A stretch of DNA of 64,000 nt from Branchiostoma lanceolatum (Eukaryota > Chordata > Leptocardii > Amphioxiformes > Branchiostomatidae): the NCBI RefSeq assembly GCF_035083965.1, contig NC_089738.1:11434734-11498733 (forward strand), read 5' to 3'. Shown here one piece after another: positions 21,984 to 27,831 of the stretch (the first letter of the stretch is position 1; every line of letters starts with the position of its first letter). A program made the position numbers and the translations under genes. Under the pieces are notes generated by a model. The model did not search any database. It had not been told where the DNA came from and saw nothing but the letters and a program-made list of their open reading frames with translations.

Positions 21984-22028
21984 ATGGATGAGGGGGCAGC
22001 AGGGATGGACATTGGTGGACTTTTAGAG
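21984..22028 (+). CDS. eIF4A-like exon 1
   Basis: This encodes 15 residues starting [12 protein letters not shown], a short acidic N-terminus like that of eIF4A. It ends at phase 0 before GTAGGA. The start is the first ATG after an in-frame TGA at 21969. Confidence 0.7.
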
Positions 22029-25000: not shown

Positions 25001-27831
25001 ACTGGGAGGCTCATGCGCGATCCCGTCAACGTCATGGTCAAGGATGAGGACCTGACCCTGGAGGGCGCCAAGCAGTTTTGCGTCATGGTGGAACGTGAGG
25101 TGAGTGTCACAAAGTGCTGACCAGTTATGCAGTGTACCATGTACCCAAGTCTTTTTGAGACCGTGCGGTCGGAGGGTTGTTACATGTATCTACTGTGTCT
25201 GGGACACGGTATTGCAAGGTGGAGCCCAACCCTCTCCTTCCGCCGCCTTTTACCTCCCAAAGTCAGGTACCAATTTTTCACCTGGGTGGAGTGAAGAAAT
25301 TCAAAGTCGTGCCAATTAAGTTTTTTCCCCAAGGGCAAGGGCACAACGTCTAGCCAGGATGCCAGGAACCAAACCCGTGACCTCTCAATCTCGTATCCAC
25401 CAGCCTACCCATTCGGCCATTCGATCAAGAAAGTCCTTGCCATTTTAGGGACATACTTCTTTAACAATGCTGTTATGTTGTGATTTAGGAGTACAAGATG
25501 GGCACCCTGTGTGACTTGTACGAGACCCTCACCATCACCCAAGCTGTGATCATCTGTAACACGCCGGGGAAGGTCGACTGGCTGACGGACAGGATGGGTA
25601 AAAGGGACTTCACCGTCTCCGCTACTCACGAGGACATGGAACAGGAGGAGCGGGACCTGATCAGGCGCGAGTTCCGCTCGGGATCCAGTCGGGTACTGAT
25701 CACTACTGAGCAGATGGTAAGTAGTAAAAAATAAATTATTTATTGTTTTGGCTGTGAATGACATGCATCCAGACTTGGGCTGCCCAGCTAGCCGTTGGCT
25801 ACTAGTATTATACAGGGATAGTCCTGCTAACAAAGACAATACAGAATTTAGCTAGGACATGGACCGGATGACTTTATTATGGGTTTAGAAGCGAAGGGAC
25901 CATTCATATCAGAGCCCATTGACCCCATCTGAACCGAAACGGGGGCAGATACAGACTTCCAGTCAACTTTGACCCATCCCTGACGTCACACATTCGTGTT
26001 TGTCAGAAGGAAGTGGGCCAAACACCTGATAATGGCTGACGAGGACGGATGACTTTAATGAGCTGCCCTTGTATTGGATCAAGTTGAAATATCTTAATAT
26101 TTCTCCTCGGACAATCTTCACTTTTCCCCTGAACCCACAAACGATTGACCTATGCAAAAGCATGCCTATTCACCCCATTCCTTTTGCACCCCACAGGCAC
26201 AAGAAATATGGAAATCGGGTGTTTCACCTGCATTAGTCATAAACTACGACTTGCCGTCAAACCGAGAACATTACATCACCAGGTAAGTAAGCCTGGCACA
26301 GAATGAACCTACATTATCACATAGGTAGATGGCGTCGACCAATCAGAAGCCTCCATTGCCCACAATAAGTGGTCTGTTATCACGCCATAACACACCACTT
26401 ATTGACGTCATGTCAGAACACAACCGTTCCATTTTCGTTCCATTTTGTAGAGGGGGTATCTTTTTGATTCATCTTTTTTCTTAACCTTGTTTAAAAAATC
26501 TTTATAACCGTTGCATTTTGTAGAGGGGGTATCTATTTGATGAATCTTTTTCTTAACCTTGTTTAAAAAATCTTTATCGTCTTAGAATTCCTAAAAATTT
26601 CCTTAGAATACATGAAAAAGGGAAAACAAATTTAAACTTCCCAAAAATGTTCCGCGTGTTCCATTTGCTGTTGGCCAAAGAAACCACGTTCTATTTAAGG
26701 TTCCGCGCGTTCCATTTCCTGCTGGCCAAAGAACCTGTGTTCTATTCAGGTTACCTGAGGTCATGTTGCAGGGAGATTCTTCAATGATAACATTTTCTGA
26801 CTGACCTGAAACCGACCCTACTATCCTGTGTGGTTGAAATAAATAAATCAGACAACAGTTGTACATATTCTTCATCATCTTCTGTTAAAAAGGACAAATG
26901 TGAATTCTGAAATGAATTCTTAAGATAGTATAAGGGATCTATGCGTCAAACAGAAATTGTCTACTCTTATTTGCGTCAGTTTGGATAAGCTATATGATAA
27001 TAACGTTAATGACCCGCCTCTTCCTCGGTGTATATGGTGTCATAACGCCTGGTCATGTGCTATAACCACCTCATAAAACCACCTCGTTCGCTTCGCTCAC
27101 TCGGTGGTTTTATCCGGTGGTTATAGCACATGGCCAGGCGTTATGACACCATATACACCTTGGGGCGGGTCATTAACCCTTAATTATACATGCATGTAGC
27201 TATCATATATGCATCCATGTGATTCTTCAGATATGGGCGTCATTAGGCTGCGACTGTAGTGATATGACGTTGTGTTCTCAATAAAAGACATTACTACTAC
27301 TACTACTACTACTACTACTACTACTACTACTACTACTACTACTACTCACTACTACTACTACTACTCACTACTACTACAAGATAGTTAGTGCCAGTACACC
27401 CCAACAGATTCTAGGATACAGACCTGGTACTGGCAACGTAAAAGGCAACGACAGTTCTGACTTCTGAGTACAGTATAGTTTAAGGAGGCAGTGAAAATAA
27501 TGCTGTTTCCATCATTTTTCGGTTGTAAGAATTAGTGCTGAAAACTAGGTACCTGAATTCGAACGTCATATGATTATGAACTTCTTGTATCAGTTTTTGA
27601 CTAGCATATATTGAGATGCTAATCCAGCACTTAAACCAGCCTGTTTCGTTTCCCTTCCCCTGCACGCCCCCCTCCCACCCCAGGGTTGGACTCTCTGCCC
27701 GTATTGTTGGACGCAAACGAGTGGTCCTCAACTTTGTGACAGACGGTGAGGAGCGTGTGCTGAAAGACATCGAGCAGTTCTACAACACCCAGATCCAAGA
27801 GATGCCCATGGATGTGGCTGATCTGATGTGA
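21984..27831 (+). CDS. eIF4A-like DEAD-box paralogue lacking catalytic motifs (pseudo-helicase)
   Basis: Nine exons join to 402 codons plus stop: 21984-22028, 22447-22579, 23261-23415, 23953-24112, 24675-24784, 24956-25099, 25489-25716, 26197-26282, 27684-27831. All introns are GT-AG and keep frame. The product aligns with eIF4A (about 406 residues) from end to end, including VDNFNDM near the N-terminus and EEMP-like [12 protein letters not shown] at the C-terminus. eIF4A is the ATP-dependent RNA helicase of the eIF4F translation complex. Here the ATPase core is ruined: the Q-motif Gln is Asp; Walker A SGTGKT reads SDQEAM; DEAD reads CEVD; motif V ARGID reads AQEIW with two extra residues; motif VI HRIGRGGR reads TRVGLSAR. 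Motif III SAT, '[12 protein letters not shown]' and '[12 protein letters not shown]' are kept. RNA or partner binding without ATPase activity is the likely surviving function; that is inference. A poly(A) signal lies at 28182. Confidence 0.85.
22195..22306 (+). repeat. (TG)n microsatellite
   Basis: About 56 uninterrupted TG dinucleotides lie in intron 1 of the eIF4A-like gene. The open frames of alternating Val-Cys or Thr-His that cross it are artefacts. Confidence 0.98.
22447..22579 (+). CDS. eIF4A-like exon 2 (Q-motif region)
   Basis: It contains [19 protein letters not shown] followed by [12 protein letters not shown]. The aromatic position F of eIF4A (GFEKPS) is Ile, and the Gln that contacts adenine is Asp. 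It ends in phase 1. Confidence 0.9.
23261..23415 (+). CDS. eIF4A-like exon 3 (motifs I and Ia)
   Basis: It starts [20 protein letters not shown]; the Walker A Lys-Thr is Ala-Met. Motif Ia reads AKSRETAHQ for APTRELAQQ. A second in-frame acceptor six bases upstream (23255) would add Thr-Gly. The downstream choice matches eIF4A without a gap. Confidence 0.88.
23953..24112 (+). CDS. eIF4A-like exon 4 (GG and TPGR region)
   Basis: It encodes [18 protein letters not shown], then [19 protein letters not shown]. The family motif TPGR reads TPGH. 'GDYM...HAC' is specific to the eIF4A subfamily. It ends in phase 1. Confidence 0.88.
24675..24784 (+). CDS. eIF4A-like exon 5 (motif II)
   Basis: It encodes [20 protein letters not shown]. 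The DEAD box is CEVD, so the Mg-binding Asp is Cys and the Ala is Val, while the flanking eIF4A signature SRGFKD.IYDIF is intact. It ends in phase 0. Confidence 0.9.
24956..25099 (+). CDS. eIF4A-like exon 6 (motif III)
   Basis: It encodes [20 protein letters not shown], then [20 protein letters not shown]. Motif III SAT is the only core catalytic-domain motif left unchanged. Phase 0 at both ends. Confidence 0.9.
25250..25430 (-). mobile_element. tRNA-derived SINE fragment in intron 6
   Basis: Reading the minus strand from about 25420, 'tggccgaatgggtaggc' fits the A box of Leu/Ser-type tRNAs and 'cacgggtttggttcc' fits a B box. Sequence toward 25250 contains 'cacccaggtgaaaaattgg', which resembles a conserved SINE body. 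It has no complete cloverleaf, so it is not a tRNA gene. Confidence 0.5.
25489..25716 (+). CDS. eIF4A-like exon 7 (motif IV and V start)
   Basis: It encodes [26 protein letters not shown], '[17 protein letters not shown]' and [15 protein letters not shown]. This is the most eIF4A-like exon. The changes are in the places that matter: INTRRK to CNTPGK, HGDM to HEDM and TTDLLARG to TTEQMAQE. Confidence 0.92.
26197..26282 (+). CDS. eIF4A-like exon 8 (motif V)
   Basis: It encodes [20 protein letters not shown], then [15 protein letters not shown] is lost and two residues are added before the intact VINYDLP.NRE.YI strand. It ends in phase 2. Confidence 0.85.
26363..26404. repeat. Short hairpin
   Basis: AATAAGTGGT and TGTTAT pair with ATAACA and ACCACTTATT around 'cacgcc'. 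It is a probable remnant of a small foldback in intron 8. Confidence 0.5.
26442..26577 (+). repeat. Two-copy tandem repeat of about 70 bp
   Basis: The words 'attttgtagagggggtatct', 'cttaaccttg' and 'tttaaaaaatctttat' occur in the same order twice, at about 70-bp offset, in intron 8. Confidence 0.85.
26640..26750 (+). repeat. Two-copy tandem repeat of about 57 bp
   Basis: 'gttccgcgtgttccatttgc', then 'tggccaaagaa' and 'gttctatt', occurs twice in succession. Confidence 0.8.
27005..27177. mobile_element. Foldback element flanked by TTAA in intron 8
   Basis: The terminal arms GTTAATGACCCGCC (27005-27018) and GGCGGGTCATTAAC (27164-27177) are perfect reverse complements. Inner arms 27027-27070 and 27116-27159 (44 bp) pair with one mismatch. 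The loop carries 'aaaaccacc...ggtggtttt' around 'ttcgcttcgctcac'. TTAA at both ends fits a piggyBac-type target duplication. It is a non-autonomous MITE with no coding capacity. Confidence 0.75.
27291..27376 (+). repeat. (ACT)n microsatellite
   Basis: About 27 ACT/CTA triplets with two short interruptions lie in intron 8 of the eIF4A-like gene. Confidence 0.95.
27684..27831 (+). CDS. eIF4A-like exon 9 (motif VI and C-terminus)
   Basis: It begins (R)[18 protein letters not shown], where eIF4A has the arginine-finger motif HRIGRGGRFGRKG. It ends in [20 protein letters not shown], closely following the eIF4A tail. TGA at 27829-27831. Confidence 0.92.

Follow-up and report, generated by a model that had tools for sequence, protein, structure and literature searches.

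Proteins that keep a helicase fold without its chemistry, and duplicated genes whose degenerate copy competes with the active one, have both been described. Passages of one source (PMC9539457) credit Utp25 with being the first pseudohelicase to be fully validated and Deinococcus PriA with being the first identified. For eIF4A itself, part of another report describes the DQAD, R362K and R365K mutants as lacking helicase activity and the PRRVAA mutant as dominant negative (PMC7470955), and eIF4A-R362Q is reported, in passages of a further paper, to inhibit translation as a dominant negative (PMC10362145). In Branchiostoma floridae, BfER is presented as a competitive repressor of its paralogue that arose through degenerative mutation, its authors arguing, in the excerpted text, that selection can see duplicates when they compete for partners (PMC2527136). 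Here we describe a 64,000-nucleotide stretch of the Branchiostoma lanceolatum genome (hereafter the window; assembly GCF_035083965.1, contig NC_089738.1, positions 11,434,734 to 11,498,733 of the forward strand) that carries a full-length eIF4A paralogue with an intact frame and most of its catalytic motifs lost. We tentatively propose, with less than even confidence, that it encodes a selected pseudo-helicase derived from an eIF4A1/2 duplicate, which would have lost ATP binding long ago and may dock on eIF4G without ATP turnover. Among the matches listed in the open-licence literature, judged by titles and the starts of abstracts, none concerned a dead eIF4A paralogue or amphioxus eIF4A duplicates; on the same basis, the papers there that pair "eIF4A" with "pseudoenzyme" do not deal with a paralogue of eIF4A, and of the 3 that use "pseudohelicase" two concern PriA and Utp25.

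The gene model, rebuilt from the sequence, joins nine exons on the plus strand (21984-27831) into an open frame of 402 codons followed by a stop. The eight introns are all GT-AG and match in phase, and the model thereby reproduces the structure given in a sequence-only reading of the window. All 16 splice dinucleotides are intact, and the frame, free of stops and of any net frameshift, shows neither of the disablements (of frame or of splice sites) by which a pseudogene is recognized. Every intron contains in-frame stops, between 2 and 29 of them, so splicing is required for the frame. Collinearity with eIF4A, likewise put forward in that reading, extends over the full length, with small in-frame indels: the product is identical to human eIF4A1 at 224 of 392 residues (57%), to eIF4A3 at 206 of 391 and to yeast eIF4A at 187 of 392. 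A 404-residue version, using an alternative exon 3 acceptor, matches the Pfam families DEAD (3.6e-20) and Helicase_C (3.9e-12), and its best solved-structure matches are eIF4A-I chains (up to 443.6 bits), followed by eIF4A-III (398) and yeast eIF4A (353). At the 122 sites that differ between eIF4A1 and eIF4A3 the paralogue agrees with the former at 38 and with the latter at 20. By these measures of similarity the gene is an eIF4A1/2-type paralogue.

Its catalytic core, in contrast to that of eIF4A1/2, is largely dismantled. The Q motif Gln is replaced by Asp, GTGKT by DQEAM, PTRELA by KSRETA, TPGR by TPGH, DEAD by CEVD, ARGID by AQEIW and HRIGRGGR by TRVGLSAR, where the fifth letter of motif VI (R362 in human numbering) is now L, and the GG motif is absent. 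Every motif change named in the sequence-only reading is present in our alignment, as are all three signatures it listed as retained; its statement that every ATP-handling motif is destroyed is nevertheless too strong, as SAT, E183 and D185 (letters 2 and 4 of DEAD), R359, R365 and QxxR are kept while most motifs are lost. Using residue lists and motif boundaries that we assume to be the accepted ones, 10 of 15 ATP-site residues are changed (including Q59D, K82A, T83M, D182C, D337W and R362L) and 5 kept, and 8 of 17 RNA-path residues are kept, about half of the messenger RNA (mRNA) face being lost. The Q motif, GKT, DEAD, ARGxD and HRxGRxGR, which are intact in a functional DEAD-box protein, are not intact here, and the product combines helicase homology by Pfam with lost motifs, the sequence part of what defines a pseudohelicase. 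Judged from these residues, ATP turnover is very unlikely.

The distribution and nature of the changes bear on whether the gene has been selected or has merely decayed. With human eIF4A1, eIF4A3 and yeast eIF4A as the three references for all conservation tests, 214 sites are invariant, and the paralogue is changed at 27 of the 57 that lie in motifs versus 38 of the 157 outside (Fisher p = 0.002), or at 25 of 55 motif sites once the two deleted GG columns are removed. The earlier claim that changes are concentrated in catalytic motifs thus stands as an enrichment and fails as an absolute count, which is larger outside (38 vs. 27). Replacements at the 25 motif sites are also more radical than those at the 38 sites elsewhere (BLOSUM62 scores averaging -0.6 vs. 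+0.34, one-sided p = 0.015). Nine of those 25, the deleted GG columns again left out, require at least two base changes, a multi-step fraction of 0.36 that a neutral simulation reaches at about 0.8 substitutions per site; catalysis was therefore probably lost long ago. Neutral simulation would also place about 14 stops in 402 codons at 0.8 substitutions per site, about 10 at 0.4 and about 6 at 0.25, and none is observed. A second neutral simulation, carried on until 30% of residues had diverged, left 3 of its 400 runs stop-free, and the chance that all 16 splice dinucleotides survive such divergence is, by formula, 0.006. With stops expected and none found, the frame appears to have been under constraint through most of its existence, and coding constraint probably persisted long after catalysis was lost. 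To that extent single-sequence tests lend partial support to the selected pseudo-enzyme proposed in the sequence-only reading.

The residues that would face eIF4G have fared differently from the ATP site. Passages of one study (PMC7470955) give R45, D265, E268, D296 and T298 as putative eIF4A1 contacts, drawn from eIF4G:eIF4A pairs, and report impaired eIF4G binding for eIF4A changed at D265, E268, D296 and T298. All five are unchanged in the paralogue, including E268 and D296, where eIF4A3 has D and N and yeast eIF4A has D and K; from site-class retention rates of 149/212 and 19/77, the chance of retaining all five is about 0.02. Exon 7 is the best-kept exon of the gene, with 56 of 76 residues identical to human eIF4A1 against 46 expected (stratified by family conservation, permutation p = 0.003), a test made after its eIF4G contacts were known; its rank of 10 among 313 contiguous blocks of the same size is the more cautious figure. 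Branch lengths in the paralogue are 0.36 for exon 7 versus 0.72 for the rest, and 0.86 for the N-terminal versus 0.42 for the C-terminal domain. Among the decoy partners suggested earlier (eIF4G, PDCD4-like proteins or RNA), eIF4G is favored by the five contacts and more weakly by exon 7, PDCD4 is less favored, and RNA is disfavored because about half of the mRNA face is gone.

We propose that an eIF4A1/2 gene was duplicated and that one copy then lost ATP binding and was retained as a coding gene. Its product, if expressed, would probably fold as two RecA domains, be unable to bind or hydrolyze ATP or to close on RNA, and could dock on the HEAT-1/MIF4G domain of eIF4G via its C-terminal domain and R45 of its N-terminal domain. 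In the simplest mechanism the inert paralogue would occupy eIF4G instead of active eIF4A, and cap-dependent initiation might be lowered or retuned as a result, which would make the gene a natural analogue of the laboratory dominant negative eIF4A-R362Q. The most specific form of this proposal, a natural dominant-negative eIF4A in which post-duplication loss of catalysis produced a dedicated eIF4G-docking pseudo-helicase that slows cap-dependent translation as a stoichiometric brake, is a possibility that we regard as doubtful. The paralogue is naturally altered both at R362 and in motif Ia, where the PRRVAA substitutions presumably lie.

Several considerations weigh against an ancient, eIF4G-docking pseudo-helicase. 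The excess of multi-step replacements in motifs over those elsewhere is not significant (9/25 vs. 10/38, p = 0.58), the age argument resting on the absolute multi-step fraction at few sites (9 of 25), and positive selection at motif sites could imitate age; moreover, constraint that is ongoing today is not something a single sequence can show. Change also extends beyond the motifs, and 27 of the 38 altered invariant sites there fall in the N-terminal domain. Exon 7 is slow in human eIF4A1 (0.03 vs. 0.14 elsewhere) and in eIF4A3 (0.11 vs. 0.27) too, so its shorter branch in the paralogue is not special by itself; the corresponding region of yeast eIF4A is not slow (0.47 vs. 0.29). Gene conversion from the parent could also explain the well-kept exon 7, whose GC content at third codon positions (GC3) is high at 0.82; exon 6, at a GC3 of 0.79, has only 28 of 48 identical residues. 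On the functional side, eIF4A greatly exceeds eIF4G in abundance, so that high or local expression of a decoy would be needed. R362Q, moreover, is said to act by blocking recycling through eIF4F, a mode of action that may depend, as may that of the known dominant negatives in general, on some binding of nucleotide or RNA, which the paralogue lacks. Finally, of an eight-residue docked patch described in part of a further source (PMC6262856), six residues are kept, with D261 changed to G and L400 to M, the latter as in eIF4A3.

The evidence for coding constraint would also serve a coding pseudo-helicase retained for a partner other than eIF4G, be it eIF3, CNOT1, a nuclear MIF4G protein or PDCD4, for which it would act as a sink. 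MIF4G proteins share a binding mode with eIF4A-like helicases. K291, a residue placed near eIF3a in passages of one report (PMC10948362), is conservatively R in the paralogue. We nevertheless consider such a partner possible rather than likely, since E268 and D296 are kept in their eIF4A1 form, where eIF4A3 and yeast differ. A PDCD4 sink is the less favored variant because PDCD4 covers the mRNA face of eIF4A, half of which is lost here on our assumed residue list. That PDCD4 blocks this face is reported in part of one source (PMC11217289), and no list of the eIF4A residues contacting PDCD4 was found in the literature passages searched. It is also possible, though again not likely, that the gene, under constraint through the greater part of its past and perhaps then encoding a pseudo-enzyme, is now dying or recently dead, without function but still unbroken. 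The 38 of 157 changed invariant sites outside the motifs are consistent with such an end, as are the branch length of 0.64 substitutions per site in a four-sequence tree (0.11 for human eIF4A1) and the low GC3 of exons 1, 2 and 8 (0.47, 0.45 and 0.43); the unbroken frame and full complement of splice dinucleotides speak against it, as does the rarity of both outcomes in the neutral calculations above.

Far less probable is an artefact of assembly or of the gene model, in which exons were picked so as to restore a frame that is in fact broken. Two acceptors lie in tandem at exon 3, separated by six bases (CAGGTACAG at 23255-23260), the first (23255) giving 404 and the second (23261) 402 residues, and the latter was chosen from the two; the donors after exons 1 and 4 are the weakest, at 6 of 9 positions, and the pyrimidine tracts of several acceptors are unremarkable. 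Yet both acceptors keep the frame, and the one at 23261 gives a gap-free junction in the family alignment. Scored against what we take to be the usual consensus, the donors reach 6-9 of 9, with six of the eight at 7-9 versus a mean of 4.4 over the 435 GTs of the gene region, and the alignment to human eIF4A1 has zero gaps at all eight exon junctions. We give almost no credence to a divergent helicase that is still active and reject it: E183, D185, SAT, R365 and QxxR are kept, but Q59, the whole of GTGKT, D182, D337 and R362 are lost together.

The positions of the exons and of the flanking signals are collected below. The acceptor-like site preceding 21932 has a pyrimidine score of 15/16, a value that 0.3% of the gene region's 343 AGs reach, and suggests a 5' leader extending into an upstream exon. 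The interval from it to the start codon (context AGC-ATGG) is free of ATG.

Coordinates of the eIF4A paralogue and its putative flanking signals, in window positions, with human residue numbering
Feature	Position	Strand	Content
Putative 5' leader	21932..21983	+	follows strong acceptor-like site TTCTTTTTTTTTATTAG
Exon 1	21984..22028	+	codons 1-15
Exon 2	22447..22579	+	Q motif, Q59 to D at 22549-22551; eIF4G contact R45 kept, 22507-22509
Exon 3	23261..23415	+	Walker A GTGKT to DQEAM at 23290-23304; motif Ia PTRELA to KSRETA
Exon 4	23953..24112	+	GG lost; TPGR to TPGH
Exon 5	24675..24784	+	DEAD to CEVD at 24704-24715; SRGFKD kept
Exon 6	24956..25099	+	motif III SAT intact
Exon 7	25489..25716	+	eIF4G contacts D265 (25513-25515), E268 (25522-25524), D296 (25606-25608), T298 (25612-25614)
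Exon 8	26197..26282	+	motif V ARGID to AQEIW at 26197-26211; VINYDLP kept; motif VI begins
Exon 9 and stop	27684..27831	+	motif VI HRIGRGGR to TRVGLSAR; R362 to L at 27691-27693
AATAAA-type signal, first 3' of stop	28182..28187	+	pattern only; another at 28850

The introns carry several repeats, among them a perfect (TG)56 run in intron 1 (22195-22306) and, in intron 8, a 73-base direct duplication (26436-26577), a palindrome resembling a foldback element (27027-27159; 57-base arms, 95% complementary, 19-base spacer) and a TAC array (27292-27377). A retrocopy was ruled out as the origin of the gene, its coding part being interrupted by eight introns, and so was a tandem paralogue of another gene in the window, where no eIF4A match at E<1 was found besides the gene itself, only four weak chance matches. 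Viral contigs searched with the spliced protein yielded zero relatives, and a search of them with the family alignment returned 3 distant loci, 34-40% identical, which were not used; a PADLOC scan of exon 7 gave no match. Elsewhere in the window, on the minus strand, two open stretches match Pfam Glypican (43166-43603, 4.7e-21; 60747-61409, 1e-55), the second with Drosophila Dally-like and then glypican-1 as its best solved matches, and the two, probably exons of a single gene, point to an animal genome. Also on the minus strand, a 3212-residue open frame (3542-13177) with no Pfam match at E 0.01 sits in a higher-GC stretch (0.49-0.59, 4001 to 14000) and holds, besides other tandem repeats, an array in which a 99-base unit recurs 4.8 times at 97%.

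Among known systems, the paralogue shares with eIF4A1/eIF4A2 (DDX2A/DDX2B) its full-length collinearity, its C-terminal tail and the eIF4G contacts, and departs from them in the loss of the ATP site and of about half of the RNA path and in its small in-frame indels. Like the laboratory mutant eIF4A-R362Q it has residue R362 replaced, although here the change is natural, to L rather than Q, and accompanied by many more ATP-site changes. With the pseudohelicase Utp25/Def it has in common a DEAD-box fold and vestigial helicase motifs, as far as passages on that protein describe them (PMC9539457); Utp25 is there an essential, conserved part of the small-subunit (SSU) processome with limited helicase similarity, whereas the present gene is an obvious eIF4A duplicate. 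PDCD4 resembles it in the proposed outcome, lower eIF4A activity at eIF4F, but is an MA3-domain protein, unrelated to it by known domain content. If the proposed docking holds, translation would be open to tuning by a decoy version of its own helicase, and the locus would stand beside BfER as a further case of a duplicate made competitor by degeneration. As presented in part of its description (PMC2527136), BfER is a nuclear receptor with experimental proof of lost activity, retained partner binding and competition with the active copy; the eIF4A paralogue, whose binding and repression are putative, fits the same competitor model on the side of protein synthesis.

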